Positions 17,654 to 58,406 of a stretch of DNA of 64,000 nt are shown here, in pieces. A program made the position numbers and the translations under genes. The stretch is from Flavobacteriales bacterium (GTDB taxonomy: Bacteria; Bacteroidota; Bacteroidia; Flavobacteriales_D; Sanyastnellaceae). Within the stretch, counting starts at the first letter, position 1; every line of letters starts with the position of its first letter. The notes under the pieces are model-generated. The model saw nothing but the letters and a program-made list of their open reading frames with translations. It did not search any database and was not told the origin of the DNA. The stretch is taken from assembly GCA_027491075.1 (NCBI GenBank), contig JAIXWX010000025.1, positions 124,001 through 188,000 of the forward strand, given 5' to 3'.

Positions 17654-17694
17654 AATCCCAGCCTCCAATATTAACGAGGCTGGGATTTTTTTTT
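17654..17694 (+). terminator. intrinsic terminator
   Basis: AATCCCAGCCTC (17654-17665) pairs with GAGGCTGGGATT (17676-17687) across a 10-base loop and is followed by nine T. It ends the 511-residue protein gene and insulates it from the carbon-uptake operon that begins at 17781. Confidence 0.9.
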
Positions 17695-17780: not shown

Positions 17781-18131
17781 ATGAAAAGTACCAAGAGAAT
17801 AAAGTCACTGTCACTCACGATCAATTTGTGGGTGTTATTGTTGGGTATCTTTTTAGGAACAAATGGCATTTCCTCTGCTTTTGGTGATGAGGATGAGAAT
17901 TGTGCAACAAGTCACTATTATTTTATAGAGGGAAATGCAGAGGCTGATTCAGATCAAGGCGGGGGAGAGGACGAAGATCAGTTATTTATCAGTAGTGAAA
18001 AAGAAATTCTATTCTCTCATTTCTATAATGGATACTTAAGAGAGTTTGAAAAGTCTTACGATAAAGTAAAGGGAAGCATTCCGCTTTACTTGCTCTATCA
18101 CAATTTCCGATTTGATGACAAGATAGCCTAA
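17781..18131 (+). CDS. small secreted or membrane-anchored protein heading the dabAB operon, unknown
   Basis: A 116-residue protein starting at ATG 17781 (the in-frame TTG six bases earlier is less likely). A basic N-terminus and one hydrophobic segment (LTINLWVLLLGIFLGTNGISS) form a signal peptide or anchor. An acidic, Gly-rich linker (GNAEADSDQGGGEDEDQ) is followed by a C-terminal helical region rich in aromatic residues (EILFSHFYNGYLREFEKSY, IPLYLLYHNFRFDD). There is a single Cys in the mature part. A terminator lies upstream and dabA starts 60 bases downstream with no terminator between, so it is probably co-transcribed with the DabAB-SulP genes. I know no family for it; an accessory or assembly role is inference from position alone. 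Confidence 0.65.
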   Translation: MKSTKRIKSLSLTINLWVLLLGIFLGTNGISSAFGDEDENCATSHYYFIEGNAEADSDQGGGEDEDQLFISSEKEILFSHFYNGYLREFEKSYDKVKGSIPLYLLYHNFRFDDKIA

Positions 18132-18191
18132 TTTATTATCTCGCACGTTTCGCGAGCAAATTGGGTTTAACTAATATCTTGTTTTTGTCTT

Positions 18192-20690
18192 ATGTCAGAA
18201 TTGAAAGCGTTCTTCTCTGAAGAACATGTGCTTCACGAGCTGAAGCATTATTTGCCCAATCAGGCACCATTAAAAGATTTTATTCATCACAATACGCTAC
18301 ATTCTTTTCAGGAGTATCCTTTTGAAGAAGCATTGCGGAGAGCGAGACTTGCTTTTGGTTATAGAGTGTATCGTCCTCTTGCTGAGTATCGCAAAACATT
18401 TTTTGAGGGGCGGTTTTCTGAATCGGTCTTGGAAGATGTCATACAGAATCATTTTGGAGCTGCGTTAATGGAAGATTGGCGTAGAAACCTTTTGTACAAA
18501 GCGTATGACACTTCCTCGACTTCTTCTGTAGGGAACTTAAGAGCCCATTGGAAGAGTGATCATAAGCTAAATATGGATAAGGAAACGCATCCTATTCTAT
18601 TTCGTTGGGTGAGTAGCTTTTTAGATCAAGGTATTGGCTTTGCAGGTTTTCCGTACAAAGATTTGTCTCTTATAGAGGCCATGAGAAAGCTTGATAGCAA
18701 TAGTTTTCAAGGTGTATTCAAGAATAGTACAACACGTTCTCTTTTGCAAAGCGTCACTTCATTAAAGCCATTATTGAGATTGGTCGTTGGAGTTAGAGAA
18801 GATCTCTATGAGTGTTATCTTTTTGATCAGCAATTTGCTCACCCTGGTTGGTCGGGTATGGTCGCGGTATTGGAAACAACAAGCGGAAGCTTGCTTGATA
18901 GGCGTAAAATCTCTTTGAAGGACTTTATTACACTTGAGCTTTTATTGGAAGTAGATGCACTTATTTCGAAATTTGGTGAGCGGTTTCCCGACGTAAGCGC
19001 GCGTTTGGAGGATTTTAATAATGATTACTTTATTGATCGTCCTGATGATGAGTACATGAAAGTGCTTTCTCTTTGGCAGGAAGTATCGGAATGGAATTAT
19101 TACGATCAAGTGCTTTTGGGCATGAGCAGACCACAGGCAATTGCTTCCTATCCTGTTCCCAGCTTTCAAAGTATTTTTTGCATAGATGATCGAGAGTGTT
19201 CATTTAGAAGGTACTTGGAGAATGAGGATCCTGCTTGTCAAACCTTCGGTACTGCAGGCTTCTTTGGATTGGATTTGTCATTCAAACCAGAACATGGATT
19301 GTTTGATACGAAGAGTTGTCCCGCTCCTATAACTCCTTCCACGGTGATATTAGAATCAGAGTCGGAGAAACGCCATAGGAAAGACAATCATTTTCATCAT
19401 GGTTCTTACAGTCTTTTGGGTGGGTGGCTGCTTTCTCAGACCATGGGTTTTTGGTCAGCCTTGAAGCTAACGGCATCGATATTTTATCCAACAGAGACAA
19501 AGTCTATGGTTTCTTCATTTAAACACATGGATAAGGAAGGTAAGCTCACTTTTAAGTTTGATGAAAAGCAAAGCAGAGAGGGTTTTAAAGTGGGGTATAC
19601 TTCCACTGAAATGGCAGATAAGATGGCCGCATTGCTGTACTCTATTGGTTTGGTAGAAGGTTTTGCTCCAGTAGTATACATTGTTGGGCATGGAGCGAGT
19701 AGCATGAACAACACGCATTATGCCGGATATGATTGTGGCGCATGTTCTGGAAGGCCAGGAAGTGTGAATGCAAGAGTGGCAGCTGCGATGTTGAATATGG
19801 CTGAAGTGAGATTTCTTTTAATAGAAAGGGATATCATTATCCCGAAAGAAACAGTATTTATTGGTGCGTTGCATGATACCACAAAGGATGAGATAGAATT
19901 CTATGATGAAGCTACGTTAGGAGAGATTGAGAAGAACAGACACTTTAACTGTAAGTCTGTTTTTGAAAAAGCCTTACGAAAGAACGCGCGCGAGAGGTCA
20001 AGAAGATTTCTTTTGATTGACTCTCATCGCAAAGAGACCAGTGTGCATCGTTTGGTGAAGAAAAGAGCCATGAGCTTGTTTGAACCTCGACCAGAGTGGA
20101 ATCATGCTACGAATGCTTTGTGTATAGTAGGAAGAAGATCAACCAATAGACATTTATTTCTTGATAGAAGAGCATTTCTCAACTCCTTTGACTACAGGCT
20201 CGATACAGAAGGAAAGTATCTCACAGGAATTTTGAATGCGGTGGCGCCTGTGTGTGGAGGAATTAATCTAGAGTATTACTTCTCACGAGTCGACAATTAT
20301 CGCTTGGGGGCTGGTACAAAGTTGCCCCATAATGTGATTGGATTAATAGGTGTAGCAAACGGAATGGATGGCGATCTTCGTACAGGTCTGCCAGCTCAAA
20401 TGATAAATATTCATGAGCCTTTGAGACTCCTTGTAATCGTGGAGCATGAGCCACAGATTGTATTGAACGTACTTCAAGCAAATCCTGTGACCAAGCAGTG
20501 GTTTTACAATGAGTGGATTCATCTGGCTTGTTTGAACCCATTAGATGGCAAGATTTACATCTATAAGCACCATGTTTTTAAAGAGTATAAATTCTGTGCT
20601 AATCACATCAGTAGATTGGATTCTTTAGAAGCGATTCGCATTGAGGAGCATGATAACTTACCTGTATCTTATTTGGAGGCGCAGCCATGA
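18192..20690 (+). CDS. dabA: DabA, inorganic-carbon transporter catalytic subunit (DUF2309/UPF0753)
   Basis: An 832-residue cytoplasmic-face subunit. In characterised DabAB complexes, DabA is a beta-carbonic-anhydrase-like zinc protein that hydrates CO2 in one direction, driven by ion flow through DabB. The zinc and active-site set can be read: Cys330 and Asp332 (SIFCIDDREC), His500 (IVGHGASS) and Cys515 (GYDCGACSGRPG). The spacing (C-x-D; His to Cys 15 residues) is the same as in the Halothiobacillus protein. Other family blocks are LHELKHYLPNQAPLKDFIHH near the N-terminus and NLEYYFSRVDNYRLGAGTKL near residue 695. Its stop overlaps the dabB start (ATGA, 20687-20690), which supports one complex. 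Confidence 0.94.
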   Translation: MSELKAFFSEEHVLHELKHYLPNQAPLKDFIHHNTLHSFQEYPFEEALRRARLAFGYRVYRPLAEYRKTFFEGRFSESVLEDVIQNHFGAALMEDWRRNLLYKAYDTSSTSSVGNLRAHWKSDHKLNMDKETHPILFRWVSSFLDQGIGFAGFPYKDLSLIEAMRKLDSNSFQGVFKNSTTRSLLQSVTSLKPLLRLVVGVREDLYECYLFDQQFAHPGWSGMVAVLETTSGSLLDRRKISLKDFITLELLLEVDALISKFGERFPDVSARLEDFNNDYFIDRPDDEYMKVLSLWQEVSEWNYYDQVLLGMSRPQAIASYPVPSFQSIFCIDDRECSFRRYLENEDPACQTFGTAGFFGLDLSFKPEHGLFDTKSCPAPITPSTVILESESEKRHRKDNHFHHGSYSLLGGWLLSQTMGFWSALKLTASIFYPTETKSMVSSFKHMDKEGKLTFKFDEKQSREGFKVGYTSTEMADKMAALLYSIGLVEGFAPVVYIVGHGASSMNNTHYAGYDCGACSGRPGSVNARVAAAMLNMAEVRFLLIERDIIIPKETVFIGALHDTTKDEIEFYDEATLGEIEKNRHFNCKSVFEKALRKNARERSRRFLLIDSHRKETSVHRLVKKRAMSLFEPRPEWNHATNALCIVGRRSTNRHLFLDRRAFLNSFDYRLDTEGKYLTGILNAVAPVCGGINLEYYFSRVDNYRLGAGTKLPHNVIGLIGVANGMDGDLRTGLPAQMINIHEPLRLLVIVEHEPQIVLNVLQANPVTKQWFYNEWIHLACLNPLDGKIYIYKHHVFKEYKFCANHISRLDSLEAIRIEEHDNLPVSYLEAQP

Positions 20691-22564
20691 AACTAGACAT
20701 AGTTATACTATTACTCTTTGTTATTCCTTTCCTTGGATTTATCTCTGTTGTTGCTACCTCAGGAAAGAAAGAGACTCTCATTTCGAAACTGGCTTTTGTA
20801 TTTGTGTCAATGCACTTATTGGCAGTGCTTAGTGCTACGGTGCTCTGGATTCTTTCCGGGAATGATGCATTGAACATTCCAGAAGTGACCTTATTTAGAT
20901 CCGAAGAGTATGTATTTATCATAGATTTTTATTTTGATAAACTCACTGTTTTTTTTCTGTTGGTGGGAAGTTTTATTATGCTTCTCATTACGCGTTATAG
21001 CCGTTACTACATGCATTTGGAAAGAGGGTATAAACGTTTTTTTGCGACCATATTGTTTTTCTACACAGGGTTTTCATTGACTGTTCTTGCGGGAAATTTT
21101 GAAACGTTATTCATGGGCTGGGAAATTCTTGGGATATCTTCATTTCTTCTGATTGGTTTTTATAGAGAGCGGTATTTGCCAGTAAGAAATGCAGTAAAAG
21201 TGTTTTCGATTTATAGAATTGGGGACGTGGGTATTTTGTTAGCCATGTGGGCTAGTCATCACTTATGGCATGAGAACATTACCTTTTTTAAACTGCACAA
21301 TCAACTATTAGTAGATAGTACAATTAGCACTCATAGTGGGATAGGATTGTTTATCGCTCTTTGTTTGTTGCTTGCCGCAGCGGCGAAGTCGGCTCAATTT
21401 CCGTTTAGTTCGTGGTTGCCAAGAGCCATGGAAGGCCCGACACCTTCTAGTGCGATATTTTACGGTTCCTTATCTGTTCACCTTGGAGTTTTCTTATTGT
21501 TGCGAACACATCCGTTATGGGAGCATCAGTGGCTGGCTAGAGTGCTCATAGGCCTTATCGGTTTGATAACTGCCATTATGGGGTACTTCATAGCAAGCGT
21601 TCAAAGTACCATTAAAACACAAGTTGCTTATGCTTCAGTGAGTCAAATTGGTATTATGTTTATTACGCTTTCTCTTGGATTTGAGAATTTGGTATTGTTT
21701 CACTTCCTTGGAAATGCTTTCTTGAGAATGTATCAACTCTTGGTAAGCCCTAGTATAGTAAGTTACAAGATCCGAGATCAATTTTATCATTTTAATCCTG
21801 AGCGAAAATCTATTTTCAATTTCTTACCGCAACGGCTGAGTAATTCTCTATACATATGGTCTTTGAAGGAATGGAACTTGGATAGCTTAATGAACAAGCT
21901 TGTTTTTGCGAGAGCGAAGTACTTTGGGCATAGGTTGGACTTTCTCAATCAAGGCAATGCTCTGTTTTTCCTTGTTCCTTTTTATTTATTCGGAGTGTTC
22001 GTTTTCTTTCGCTACACTAACTCGGAGCATGGATTGATGGGCTATTTTCCAGAAGTATTCTCCTTCATTGGATTATTGCTAGTTTTTAGAGCATTTAGTG
22101 AGCGTATACAGCCCAAGCTAGCTTGGTTATTTATTCTAATGAACCATTTTTGGGTAGCGCTATCGATTGCTTTCAATGAACATTTCGATTTATCTCACGT
22201 GGTCCTGTACTTGAGCGGGGTAGTTGTTTCGGCAAGTATTGGCTATTTTGTTCTCCATCGTTTGCGATCAGCACAACCGCAAGCGTATCATTTGAATGGA
22301 TATCTCGGTCACATAAGTCGGCACCGAACGTGGGCTTTTATCTTTCTTTTGGCCTCTCTAGGATTGATGGGATTTCCAATAACTGTGAGTTTTATCGGAG
22401 AAGATTTAATATTTAGTCACATTCAAGAGAGTCAATATCTATTAGCAACAATGAATGCCTTGGGATATGTATTCTCAGGCATCGCATTGATTCGAATGTA
22501 CTCGCGTTTGTTTCTTGGACCAGACGTCAAATTAGAGTATCCAACATCACTTAAATCAGCATAA
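20687..22564 (+). CDS. dabB: DabB, ion-conducting membrane subunit (NuoL/MrpA-like)
   Basis: A 625-residue polytopic membrane protein of the proton-conducting NuoL/ND5/MrpA family. Family residues are present: the Glu in MGWEILGISSFLLIGFYRER (helix 5 region) and the Lys in LLLAAAAKSAQFPFSSWLP, with the following MEGPTPSSAIFYGSL. Roughly 14-16 hydrophobic helices can be counted. Next to dabA with a 4-base overlap, it is DabB rather than a respiratory complex I or Mrp subunit; none of the other nuo or mrp genes is nearby. It supplies cation (probably proton) flow to drive CO2 hydration by DabA. Confidence 0.93.
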   Translation: MKLDIVILLLFVIPFLGFISVVATSGKKETLISKLAFVFVSMHLLAVLSATVLWILSGNDALNIPEVTLFRSEEYVFIIDFYFDKLTVFFLLVGSFIMLLITRYSRYYMHLERGYKRFFATILFFYTGFSLTVLAGNFETLFMGWEILGISSFLLIGFYRERYLPVRNAVKVFSIYRIGDVGILLAMWASHHLWHENITFFKLHNQLLVDSTISTHSGIGLFIALCLLLAAAAKSAQFPFSSWLPRAMEGPTPSSAIFYGSLSVHLGVFLLLRTHPLWEHQWLARVLIGLIGLITAIMGYFIASVQSTIKTQVAYASVSQIGIMFITLSLGFENLVLFHFLGNAFLRMYQLLVSPSIVSYKIRDQFYHFNPERKSIFNFLPQRLSNSLYIWSLKEWNLDSLMNKLVFARAKYFGHRLDFLNQGNALFFLVPFYLFGVFVFFRYTNSEHGLMGYFPEVFSFIGLLLVFRAFSERIQPKLAWLFILMNHFWVALSIAFNEHFDLSHVVLYLSGVVVSASIGYFVLHRLRSAQPQAYHLNGYLGHISRHRTWAFIFLLASLGLMGFPITVSFIGEDLIFSHIQESQYLLATMNALGYVFSGIALIRMYSRLFLGPDVKLEYPTSLKSA

Positions 22565-22568
22565 AAAA

Positions 22569-24209
22569 ATGACAAATAACAGAAATAATGATTTGCTTGA
22601 AAAGCCTTTGAAAGGGTTCAAAGGTTTAGCACAGAACTGGAAGAGTGATATAACTAGTGGTTTTTTAGTTTTTCTCATCGCTCTGCCATTGTGTCTTGGG
22701 ATTTCCATGGCAAGTGGTTTCCCACCTGTAGCGGGTATTTTCACGGCCATTATAGGTGGTGTTTTTGTTAGTTTTTTTGGGGGATCCGATTTGACTATTA
22801 AAGGACCGGCTGCAGGATTGATTGTAATTGCGCTTGGAGCTGTTCAAGAACTGGGTCAAGGTGATGCTATGCTTGGTTATAAACTTGCTTTAGCTACTAT
22901 TGCAGTTGCAGGTATGGTGCAAGTTCTTTTTGGTTTGATTCGTTCTGGAGTGTTAGCGGATTTTTTTCCAAGTGCTGCAGTTCACGGGATGTTGGCTGCA
23001 ATAGGTTTAATTATTGGTGTCAAGCAGATTTTTACTTTGATGGGCGTGAAGCCACAAGGTAGGGAAACACTCGATTTGTTTGCAGAACTCCCTCGTGCTA
23101 TTCAAGAAATGAATCCAGAGATTGCAATCATTGGATTGATTTCGTTGGTAATACTTTTCGCACTTCCCCAAATCAAGAATAAGTACATAAGAAGAATTCC
23201 GGCACCTTTGATTGTCATACTTGTAGCTATTCCTTTGGGAAGAATGTTTGACTTAGAACATGAACACACCTACTTATTTCTGGATTCTCACCAATATTCA
23301 ATCGGGCCTAAGTTCTTGGTAACGCTTCCTGCGAGCTTAATGAGTGCTATTACTAGTCCAGATTTTTCTCAAGTTTTTTCAGGAACAAGTATTAAGTATA
23401 TTATCATGTTTGCGGTAGTTGGAAGTCTTGAGTCGTTATTGAGTTCAAAAGCCATTGACTCCCTGGATCCTTACAAACGAAAGAGTAACATGAATAGGGA
23501 TTTGATTGGAGTTGGATTGGGAAATACTCTGGCAGGTTTTATTGGTGGACTTCCTATGATCTCGGAAATTGTTAGAAGTTCTGCAAACATTAACAATGGA
23601 GCTAAGACATGGTGGTCGAATGTTTTTCATGGATTATTCTTATTGCTTTTTGTGGCTTTTCTTCCTTTCATTATTCATCAAATTCCGTTATCGGCTTTAG
23701 CGGGTATGCTTATTTATACTGGATATAGACTTGCTTCTCCAAAGGAGTTTTTTAAAACCTACAAAATCGGAAAAGAACAACTTTTGATTTTTGTGGTAAC
23801 TATTATTTTCACACTTTCAACTGATTTATTGATTGGTATCGGCATGGGAATTCTCACCAAGTTTATCATGCATTTCTTAAATGGATTGCCAGTGAAGTAT
23901 ATATTTAAGCCGCTGTTTACAGTCACTGAGAACGAGGAACAAACAGAATTTACAGTTGATGTTTTTCATTCTGCTGTATTCAGTAACTATATAAAGTTGA
24001 AGAAGTCTATAGATGCCCTTCCAAGAGGAAAAAAAGTCATTATTGATTTTTCTAATAGCCATTTGGTGGATCACACCGTAATGGAAAATTTGCATCAATA
24101 TGCAAGTGATTATACGCATCAAGGAGGCATTTTCGAAATTCAAGGTTTGGAGCATTTGAAAGCATTTTCACAACACGACTTGGCGGCAAGAAAGAAGCCT
24201 GTGTTTTAA
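22569..24209 (+). CDS. SulP-family anion transporter with STAS domain, probable bicarbonate importer
   Basis: A 546-residue transporter of the SulP (SLC26) family. The membrane part spans about 25-430 with 12 or more hydrophobic segments; the family signature FGGSDLTIKGPAAGLIVIAL is near residues 73-92 and SAITSPDFSQVFSGTSIKYI near 255. The cytoplasmic STAS domain is about 435-546 (KVIIDFSNSHLVDHTVMENL). The start is 5 bases after dabB, so it belongs to the dabAB operon. SulP proteins carry sulfate, bicarbonate or dicarboxylates; bicarbonate (as in cyanobacterial BicA) is inferred from the neighbours. There is no fused carbonic anhydrase domain. Confidence 0.87.
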   Translation: MTNNRNNDLLEKPLKGFKGLAQNWKSDITSGFLVFLIALPLCLGISMASGFPPVAGIFTAIIGGVFVSFFGGSDLTIKGPAAGLIVIALGAVQELGQGDAMLGYKLALATIAVAGMVQVLFGLIRSGVLADFFPSAAVHGMLAAIGLIIGVKQIFTLMGVKPQGRETLDLFAELPRAIQEMNPEIAIIGLISLVILFALPQIKNKYIRRIPAPLIVILVAIPLGRMFDLEHEHTYLFLDSHQYSIGPKFLVTLPASLMSAITSPDFSQVFSGTSIKYIIMFAVVGSLESLLSSKAIDSLDPYKRKSNMNRDLIGVGLGNTLAGFIGGLPMISEIVRSSANINNGAKTWWSNVFHGLFLLLFVAFLPFIIHQIPLSALAGMLIYTGYRLASPKEFFKTYKIGKEQLLIFVVTIIFTLSTDLLIGIGMGILTKFIMHFLNGLPVKYIFKPLFTVTENEEQTEFTVDVFHSAVFSNYIKLKKSIDALPRGKKVIIDFSNSHLVDHTVMENLHQYASDYTHQGGIFEIQGLEHLKAFSQHDLAARKKPVF

Positions 24210-55560: not shown

Positions 55561-55610
55561 AAAGGTTAATTTTGGTCGAAAATAAGAGGTAATGTGATTC
55601 CATTAAACCT

Positions 55611-55618
55611 TATTTTTG
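55611..55618 (+). promoter_or_regulatory. -7 promoter box before the His-rich protein gene
   Basis: TATTTTTG at 55611-55618 matches TAnnTTTG; ATG follows eight bases later at 55627. The mRNA of the putative metal-uptake operon would have a leader of only one to three bases. No TTG at the expected -33 place was seen, so an activator or repressor may matter here. Confidence 0.45.
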
Positions 55619-55626
55619 CACAGAAA

Positions 55627-55980
55627 ATGAGAAAGCATACACACTGGACAGTCTTTAAGGCGTTGTTCATGGTTCTAACCATGGCGTGGCTTTATGGCTA
55701 CCAGTCTTACCACCGCTTGGTGGAGCATGCGAATCACAATCACCCATCGTGTGAATCAACTCATTCTCATTCTCATTCTCACTCACCTTCTGATGCTAGT
55801 TCGGGTTCTGATTCGGACTGCGAGGTGTGTAAGGTTATTGCCTCGGCATTTGCGGGCTCGCCTACTTATTCTTATGAATCTCTGAAGCAAGAAGGAGAAA
55901 CCGTTTACTTTAATTTTTATAATACACCGAGCTATCCATCGGTGATTCTTTCTCCGCCCCATCGCGGACCGCCTGCGTGA
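55627..55980 (+). CDS. small His-rich membrane-anchored protein, putative metal-binding
   Basis: A 117-residue protein from ATG 55627 (a GTG 33 bases earlier is in the promoter box region). One hydrophobic helix near the N-terminus (FKALFMVLTMAWLYGYQSY) is followed by a His-rich run HANHNHPSCESTHSHSHSHS, a C-x-x-C pair (DCEVCKV) and a Pro-rich end. The run and Cys pair suggest binding of zinc, copper or nickel at the outer face of the inner membrane or in the periplasm. The layout resembles DUF2946-type short proteins that precede copper or zinc receptor genes. The TonB receptor starts 47 bases downstream, so the two are likely one transcript. Confidence 0.75.
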   Translation: MRKHTHWTVFKALFMVLTMAWLYGYQSYHRLVEHANHNHPSCESTHSHSHSHSPSDASSGSDSDCEVCKVIASAFAGSPTYSYESLKQEGETVYFNFYNTPSYPSVILSPPHRGPPA

Positions 55981-56027
55981 TAAATCTTACTTTCTAATCA
56001 CGTTATTCTTTTCTTTATTCAATTATC

Positions 56028-58406
56028 ATGAGATTCCTAATGATCTTGTGTTTGATGGTGGTCATCTGCCACTCATCAACGCAAGCTCAAAACTTTGTTG
56101 TTGCGGGAACAGTAATTGACAAAACAACGGGAGAGCCTCTCACGGGTGTATTTGTTCATAGCCATGAAGCGCATCTGTTATGTTACACAGATAGCTTGGG
56201 CAGATTTCTGTTTCCTTCATTTCCTGCTGGTTCGCATCATTTACATGCTGAATTAACGGGGTATGTTGGCTTTGCAGAGTATTACACAATATCCCAGGAC
56301 ACGACTTCATTGATCTTGATACTTGAGGAATCTACCATTGAATTAAGAAGTTTAGTGATTGAAAGCGAGGTCTTCCTTTCTTCTTACAAGGCACAGTCGC
56401 AAGACTTAATCATTTTGAGCAAAGACGAATTAAAGGATGGCAATGCCATGACATTATCACAGAAATTTACTCGTTTACCAGGCATTCACCAACAACAAAC
56501 AGGCGCCTCTATTTCACGACCTGTCATGAGGGGATTGCAAGGGAATCGCATTGTGGTGAGTGATCTTGGCATGAAGCAAGAAGGCCAACAATGGGGCACC
56601 GACCATGGGCTGGAGATTGATGCTTTTGGAGCTGAAAGGGTAGAAGTAATAAAAGGTCCAGCCTCTCTACTATACGGAAGTGATGCGCTGGGAGGGGTGA
56701 TTCGTATACAAACACCCTCCATACCCATGCCAGGGTGGAGAGGCGAGGTCCAAAGTTTAGCACGCACAAACAACGATTACCTCGCATCCTCTGTTTCTTT
56801 AGAGGCTGCGAAGGGAAAGTGGTTTGTAAAAGGCAGAACTACTTGGGCAGAGTTTGGTGATTATCGTGTTCCCGCAAGTTCATTCACGTATCTCAATAGA
56901 ACGCTTCCAATCAATAATCAACGTTTGAGAAATACAGGAGGTCGAGAGTTACACTACCAATCAACATTTGGATATGTATCTGAGAGTATGACCTTGAAAT
57001 GGACCTGGAGTCACTTTCATCAGAAGAATGGTTTGTTTCCAGGAATTGTAGGTATTCCAACTGCCACCAGTGTACGTGATGACGGTGATACACGCGACAT
57101 TGATTTGCCGCATCAATTAGTAGATCACATGAAAATGGCGTTTAATGGTGTTTTCAATTTGGAAAAAGGACAATTGAAAGTGGATGGAGGCTGGCAGCGG
57201 AACCATCGTCAAGAGCTAATTCGCCCGCACAGAAACGGCTATGCTCCGTTGCCTTCTACTCCTCTAGCGCATCAATTGAGACTAAGTACTTGGCAACTGG
57301 CAGCTCGGTATCATTTGCACAGAAGAGGACCTTGGAAATTCATTCCAGGTATAAGTTCTTCTATTCAGAGAAATACAAGAGAGGGATGGGAGTTTTTACT
57401 ACCGAATCATCGCTCGGTAGATGCAGGTGTATTTCTATACGCAGAATATGACATTCAAGACAATCTTGTTTGGAGTGGTGGCGCCCGATTGGATTATGGT
57501 GAGAGGCATTCAACGGCTTTTTCCCTAGCCAACTACAGTTCTGAAAATGTCATTTCAGGATATAGCCTGCGTGCTCCAGAGGTGGATCGGTCATTTTTCA
57601 ATTGGAGTGCTTCATCTGGTTTGAGTTATACGCCTAGTAACAAATGGAATTTAAAGGCGAATGTGGCAAGGAGTTTTAGAATTCCCAATGCGGCGGAACT
57701 ATTGATCAATGGAGTGCATCATGGCACTTTTAGGCATGAGCAAGGTGATGCATCTCTAAAAAGTGAAATAGGGTATCAAGCAGATGTAAGTCTATTATTT
57801 GAGTTGGATGACGTGTATTGCAAGCTTACTCCTTATTTTAATTATTTTGAAGGATATATTTATCTACGTCCATCTGCGCGGTTTTCAGAATTGCCGGATG
57901 GTGGCCAGGTGTATATCTATTCACAACACGACGCCATTTTCACAGGAGCGGAGCTGTACACGGAATGGCATCCTGTAAAGCCAATACACATCGAGTGGAC
58001 TGTTGACGGTGTGTATAGCTACAACATCACTACTACACTTGCGCTTCCCTTTACACCTCCTTTGCGAAATCGATTGCAAGTTTCTTATGAAAAAGAAATG
58101 GAGAGCAGTGGTCTTCAGTCTTGGAATGTGGGAGGTGCATGGGTTATTTGGGCCAATCAATCCAATGTAGATCGAAATGAACTAAACACTCCCGGTGCAG
58201 GTGTTGTAGAATTGTTCACAGCGATATCATTGAAATTTGGTCAAGAAATGTGCACCTTGAAATTGGGCGTACAAAATTTATTCAACCGCTACTACATGTC
58301 TCATCTGAGTGCATATAGAGCGTTATCTCTTCCAGAGCAAGGAAGAAACTATTCAATTTATTTAACCATTCCCTTTTCGGGAAATAAAAAACAAAATTCG
58401 AATTAA
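56028..58406 (+). CDS. TonB-dependent outer-membrane receptor, probable metal uptake
   Basis: A 792-residue receptor. Signal peptide about 1-20 (ends SSTQAQ). An N-terminal carboxypeptidase-regulatory domain (about 22-105: VVAGTVIDKTTGEPLTGVFV) precedes the plug (about 120-235: KFTRLPGIHQQQTGASISRP, RVEVIKGPASLLYGSDALGG) and a 22-strand barrel. The terminal part has the family pattern LGVQNLFNRYYMSHLSAYRA. His residues are frequent in the plug and loops. Between a His-rich small protein and a His-rich DUF4625 lipoprotein, so zinc, copper or a metallophore is a better guess than siderophore or sugar; no SusD-like partner is present. Substrate is inference. Confidence 0.88.
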   Translation: MRFLMILCLMVVICHSSTQAQNFVVAGTVIDKTTGEPLTGVFVHSHEAHLLCYTDSLGRFLFPSFPAGSHHLHAELTGYVGFAEYYTISQDTTSLILILEESTIELRSLVIESEVFLSSYKAQSQDLIILSKDELKDGNAMTLSQKFTRLPGIHQQQTGASISRPVMRGLQGNRIVVSDLGMKQEGQQWGTDHGLEIDAFGAERVEVIKGPASLLYGSDALGGVIRIQTPSIPMPGWRGEVQSLARTNNDYLASSVSLEAAKGKWFVKGRTTWAEFGDYRVPASSFTYLNRTLPINNQRLRNTGGRELHYQSTFGYVSESMTLKWTWSHFHQKNGLFPGIVGIPTATSVRDDGDTRDIDLPHQLVDHMKMAFNGVFNLEKGQLKVDGGWQRNHRQELIRPHRNGYAPLPSTPLAHQLRLSTWQLAARYHLHRRGPWKFIPGISSSIQRNTREGWEFLLPNHRSVDAGVFLYAEYDIQDNLVWSGGARLDYGERHSTAFSLANYSSENVISGYSLRAPEVDRSFFNWSASSGLSYTPSNKWNLKANVARSFRIPNAAELLINGVHHGTFRHEQGDASLKSEIGYQADVSLLFELDDVYCKLTPYFNYFEGYIYLRPSARFSELPDGGQVYIYSQHDAIFTGAELYTEWHPVKPIHIEWTVDGVYSYNITTTLALPFTPPLRNRLQVSYEKEMESSGLQSWNVGGAWVIWANQSNVDRNELNTPGAGVVELFTAISLKFGQEMCTLKLGVQNLFNRYYMSHLSAYRALSLPEQGRNYSIYLTIPFSGNKKQNSN

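Follow-up and report, generated by a model that had tools for sequence, protein, structure and literature searches.

DabAB is already known from a heterotroph. In the excerpted description of MpsAB, the DabAB homologue of Staphylococcus aureus, MpsAB takes the place of carbonic anhydrase in E. coli and sustains S. aureus at the CO2 level of air, and its expression drops at 5% CO2; the downstream mpsC is dispensable, and no SulP partner is mentioned in that excerpt (PMC6689103). DAB2 of Halothiobacillus neapolitanus (DabA2-DabB2, PDB 9rd0) has the same two subunits as the pump analysed here and, in the part of its account available to us, is a two-subunit complex for which neither a SulP partner nor an exported leader is mentioned; DAB1 of the same organism comes with a small membrane protein (PMC13144422). 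Unlike the bacterium considered here, H. neapolitanus is an autotroph with RuBisCO. Two further kinds of system invite comparison. SulP proteins that adjoin or are fused to carbonic anhydrase were reportedly noted by Felce and Saier in 2004, and SecM, VemP and MifM are arrest peptides that sense export. A literature search, with the main DAB paper of 2019 outside its scope, found no account of DabAB with SulP and no paper on Bacteroidetes leaders such as the one described below.

We analysed a 64,000-nucleotide stretch of DNA (the window) from a Flavobacteriales genome of 3.02 Mb that is 99.7% complete. A first-pass annotation had read one of its loci as a DabA-DabB-SulP operon with a small protein in front. 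The operon is present, and we consider it rather likely that it is an inorganic-carbon uptake operon standing behind a translationally coupled, cis-acting leader.

Gene content of the locus

The + strand order of the window is a 116-aa ORF, dabA, dabB and the SulP gene (Table 1), the last three with domain matches. The SulP gene does lie close behind dabB, as had been noted, but the gap between the dabB stop codon and its start is 4 bases, not 5. Upstream of the small ORF, a terminator-like element, read by eye, consists of TCCCAGCCTC, a 10-nt loop that exceeds the limit of the terminator scan, GAGGCTGGGA and T9; it would separate the operon from the preceding gene. Elsewhere in the window (55570-58406) a His-rich DUF2946-like small protein ending in HRGPPA is followed directly by a TonB-dependent receptor, another pairing of a small gene with a transporter.

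Table 1. Features of the operon and of the region preceding it, in window positions
Feature	Position	Strand	Description
Intrinsic-terminator-like hairpin and T-run	17656..17694	+	Closes the preceding unit; read from sequence
Leader gene, 116 aa	17781..18131	+	Signal sequence, acidic middle, C-terminal IPLYLLYHNFRF; profile match
5' arm of predicted junction stem	18117..18134	+	Last codons of leader, its stop codon and 3 nt
Inner hairpin CTCGC/GCGAG	18140..18156	+	Between both arms; RNA folding prediction
3' arm of predicted junction stem	18158..18183	+	Terminates 8 nt 5' of dabA ATG
dabA	18192..20690	+	832 aa, PF10070; cytoplasmic zinc subunit of inorganic-carbon pump
dabB	20687..22564	+	625 aa, Proton_antipo_M; NuoL/antiporter-like membrane subunit
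SulP anion transporter gene	22569..24209	+	546 aa, PF00916; probable bicarbonate transporter

DabA matches PF10070 at 691 bits (cut-off 25, E 2.6e-207), and DabB, whose gene overlaps dabA by 4 bp, matches Proton_antipo_M at 138 bits. The zinc set C330, D332, H500 and C515 had been called intact, and the alignment bears this out: the four residues are invariant in 12 relatives and all align with those of the solved H. neapolitanus DabA2. With a domain score above cut-off, the zinc residues and an adjacent antiporter-like DabB, the pair belongs with the DAB pumps, and energy-coupled CO2 hydration is predicted. DabAB is not simply a replacement for carbonic anhydrase, because most DabAB genomes also carry the latter (co-absence with beta-carbonic anhydrase was checked by eye). 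A second, distant DabA type of about 30% identity occurs in the phylum (L019, L020, L169 and L170), with no SulP match near any of these four.

A small gene at the start of the operon

What is the small protein in front of dabA? In 54 of 80 named loci an ORF of 95-160 aa stands directly in front of the operon, and 55 upstream ORFs share one architecture in alignment: an N-terminus that by eye resembles a signal sequence, a variable middle with an acidic cluster (52 of the 55), and a conserved C-terminal PLYxL motif, near P-L/I-Y-x-L and, where found, mostly 11 or 14 residues short of the C-terminus. Flavobacterium leaders share 64% identity over their final 16 residues and 21% over the remainder. 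The family is unnamed and was recognised through genomic position only; Pfam and NCBIfam gave no consistent match for 41 members, and a peptide-pattern search with the window protein found no relative because only its C-terminus is conserved. A dN/dS of 0.15-0.51 in eight pairs points to an ORF that is translated and selected as a protein. AlphaFold2 predicts no folded domain other than an N-terminal helix, mostly at low confidence (pLDDT 64.5). Outside its training set most matches of the leader profile are ORFs that lie 60-200 bp in front of dabA or sulP, and within the window's genome it matches the leader gene alone (E 6.6e-8).

The position of these ORFs follows the transcription unit. 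A leader precedes 89 of 114 dabA or sulP genes that stand first in their unit (dabA 67/84, sulP 22/30; about a quarter thus have no detected leader) and 2 of 72 internal ones (dabA 1/22, sulP 1/50, both doubtful), although related genera do not count as fully independent, here or in the junction tests below. Loci with dabAB and SulP in separate units may have one leader for each; 10 such loci are listed, 9 of them convincing. The small gene is a widely conserved leader that probably governs when the membrane proteins of the operon are made.

Similar proteins occur in front of other operons. The HYC_CC_PP proteins (NF047658) are likewise small exported Bacteroidota proteins that precede metal-related operons and carry a similar C-terminal PPLYxLYC, but their middle is Cys-rich. 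The NF047658 model matches neither the window leader nor any of the 41 members, while the leader profile weakly finds HYC_CC_PP members before copper or TonB genes. Examples before such genes are L087 2316-2723, L072 2295-2702, L096 1147-1566 and L157 413-805, all with a C-terminal PPLYxLYC pattern, or a variant of it, in common with the leader. Leader-like ORFs also stand directly before RND efflux operons in L154 and L156, from genomes without DabA, and before a hydrogenase-4/NuoL-like membrane-subunit operon facing away from dabA (L086 5279-5641, - strand). The profile matches before RND genes and the PPLYxLYC shared with HYC_CC_PP suggest a wider class of exported leaders beyond dabA and sulP.

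The small protein could instead be an accessory subunit, membrane-anchored or periplasmic, which binds DabB or SulP and whose acidic stretch handles protons or metal ions, the junction stem then only setting protein ratios. Such a subunit would fit the purifying selection at the protein level, the signal sequence and the acidic middle; the C-terminal motif could be its docking site, and the excerpted account of H. neapolitanus DAB1 offers a precedent in its small membrane protein (PMC13144422). It fits less well with a gene that stays at the 5' end of the unit no matter whether dabA or sulP comes first, that is duplicated where units split, and that has relatives before unrelated pumps (RND efflux, copper genes). 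The low confidence of most of the predicted structure and a dabA-dabB-sulP operon of Azotobacter in which no leader was detected also speak against a subunit, which we regard as rather unlikely.

The SulP transporter and its ties to CO2-hydrating enzymes

The window SulP matches the PF00916 transporter domain at 225.7 bits (cut-off 23.2, E 1e-66), and residues 412-546 (at least about 110 residues) extend beyond that domain; Pfam makes no STAS call in this protein and a weak one in one relative. It scores 155 bits against the BicA model NF050096, far below the cut-off of 880. Its best solved relative is 6ki1, which we take to be the bicarbonate transporter BicA. Ion coupling may differ between the two, because what is presumably the Na+-binding Asp258 of BicA aligns with a Glu.

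A survey of gene order around dabA in Bacteroidota, which the first-pass annotation had called for, shows that 60 of 80 named Bacteroidota-type loci have a SulP gene no more than 6 kb from dabAB; the 80 were picked by DabA similarity, and several of the 20 without SulP end at a contig end. At this frequency the operon is far beyond chance. The order dabA-dabB-sulP is found in the window and most relatives, others having sulP-dabA-dabB or divergent units, and some loci hold a 440-460-aa gene or a DUF2490 gene in between. Genome G008 (L030 6309-10493) encodes SulP and DabA in one frame of 1394 aa in which both domains are complete and the zinc-site residues are kept; no further fusion was found in the window's family, the phylum sample or one genus. 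Genome G346 has SulP, beta-carbonic anhydrase, DabA and DabB consecutively in one operon. The window's own genome has two SulPs only, and the second adjoins its sole beta-carbonic anhydrase gene, which overlaps the end of the SulP gene by 8 bases on the window's contig (L118 6141-8310; G000:C25:244140-246309). This second pair parallels the transporters joined to a CO2-hydrating enzyme that Felce and Saier are said to have described. Unlike in those systems, the partner of the window SulP is DabA, to which SulP is fused in frame in one genome. Clustering of SulP with sulfur assimilation genes, which would have spoken against a role in carbon uptake, was not seen beside these SulPs, whose neighbours are partially annotated.

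SulP proteins carry many anions, however, and the window protein might move sulfate, a dicarboxylate or chloride, with the dabAB link serving pH or charge balance. In NCBIfam it comes nearest to the C4-dicarboxylate transporter DauA, with a score below cut-off, and sulfate transporters are among its closest PDB matches. The repeated association with CO2-hydrating enzymes (DabAB, beta-carbonic anhydrase and the fusion), which extends to both SulPs of this genome, makes another anion improbable. Bicarbonate is the probable substrate, and the earlier suggestion that DabAB and SulP act jointly on inorganic carbon draws support from the synteny, the SulP-DabA fusion, the four-gene operon and the pairing of SulP with carbonic anhydrase. 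That DabAB and SulP form a carbon-uptake module is likely.

Several variations accompany these loci. SulPs near dabAB in L045, L047, L069, L076, L084 and L092 are longer at the C-terminus by about 200 aa, a region that in L069, the one tested, has no Pfam domain match. Long SulPs (730-766 aa) were considered as fusions with carbonic anhydrase, but in the one example run against Pfam no such domain was found. A secreted, porin-like protein of 440-460 aa is encoded upstream of dabA in L074, L080, L092, L101, L107 and L061 and near sulP in L041, L095 and L116; the two tested had no Pfam match, and the protein is possibly an outer-membrane channel of the same system. Azotobacter chroococcum (L093) has a dabA-dabB-sulP operon that resembles those of Bacteroidota and probably reached it by transfer.

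The predicted junction stem

The leader end pairs with the region before the downstream start in 62% of 55 junctions, compared with 31% for 150 other pairs of genes at these loci and 32% for shuffled sequences (Fisher p 9e-5). When arms were swapped between loci, own arms paired at -8.9 and swapped arms at -6.3 kcal/mol, and 26% of native pairings fell within the best 5% (p = 8e-7), against 7% for 122 control gene pairs (p = 0.16). The median native rank is 0.24, so half of the loci do no better than about the best quarter of swapped arms. The window junction is among the top five, no swapped arm pairing as well, and its predicted stem takes in the leader stop codon. The stop codon also lies within a stem in most Flavobacterium leaders, and in many Flavobacterium loci the dabA start codon sits in a second small hairpin. 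RNAalifold gave no consensus structure for 27 Flavobacterium junctions, so covariation of the stem is unproven and we claim none. A riboswitch was considered and set aside, since Rfam gave only a chance match. The stem might also act in mRNA stability or partial termination, as an ordinary element without a tie to leader translation. This is unlikely, for although these genomes have many stable intergenic hairpins (controls mean z -1.5), control gene pairs show no excess of pairing between an upstream ORF end and the pre-start region.

Physiology of the host

The absence of carbon fixation genes noted for the window holds across the whole genome for RuBisCO, which has no match there. The anaplerotic use of bicarbonate suggested in the first-pass annotation finds no support as far as PEP or pyruvate carboxylase is concerned: neither PEP carboxylase (PF00311) nor pyruvate carboxylase/OadA (PF02436) has a match in the 99.7% complete genome. 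The carboxylase search covered RuBisCO and these two models, and the use of bicarbonate would have to fall to other enzymes, candidates being acetyl-CoA carboxylase, carbamoyl-phosphate synthase and those of purine synthesis. A rhodopsin, for which a check had been proposed, is present. The host is a rhodopsin-bearing heterotroph without sign of CO2 fixation for growth.

Discussion

How might the leader and the pump work together? In the mechanism that we propose, DabAB would couple an ion gradient to cytoplasmic CO2 hydration and SulP would import or exchange bicarbonate. The leader would be a small exported protein whose own translation controls that of the first gene in cis: the end of its ORF would pair with the stretch of RNA that leads up to the start of dabA (or sulP), and the stem would open when a ribosome arrives, or pauses, at the conserved C-terminal motif and the stop codon, so that the pump is made. 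Control of the operon in cis appears reasonably probable to us from the position of the leader and the complementarity of the arms above controls, whereas a true arrest of the nascent chain is a tentative proposal.

The leader is possibly a SecM-like arrest peptide (SecM is cited in PMC10951299). With SecM, VemP and MifM it has in common a signal sequence, a variable middle, a short conserved C-terminal motif near the stop codon, a place before the gene that it would control and a predicted RNA stem at the junction. The stem, which would hide the downstream start, is in excess over controls across the family and is not found in every member. The leader differs in that a sequence relation to the three is not shown and in that it would control a carbon pump, not export machinery; ribosome stalling at its motif is putative and drawn by analogy.

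The leader may even be one member of a large class of exported arrest peptides in Bacteroidota that has so far gone unrecognised and follows one nascent-chain-sensing logic, an extension that we hold to be conceivable but doubtful. The signal sequence would bring the nascent chain to the membrane, where the variable domain, acidic here and Cys- or His-rich before metal operons, would meet a periplasmic signal, and the shared PLYxL motif would pause the ribosome beside the stem that masks the transporter operon's start. If this is true, DabAB, SulP, RND pumps and copper systems share nascent-chain sensing.

The synteny, operon and gene fusion that tie SulP to the DAB carbon pump give it a concrete CO2-hydration partner in heterotrophs, and a 'hypothetical protein' becomes a testable leader with a motif, a stem and a position that can be mutated. 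To our knowledge, nascent-chain control has so far been found mainly in the regulation of the export machinery and in responses to antibiotics or tryptophan. Should pausing be confirmed, transporter operons would have nascent-chain sensors as well, in a family particular to a phylum with a central part in carbon turnover.
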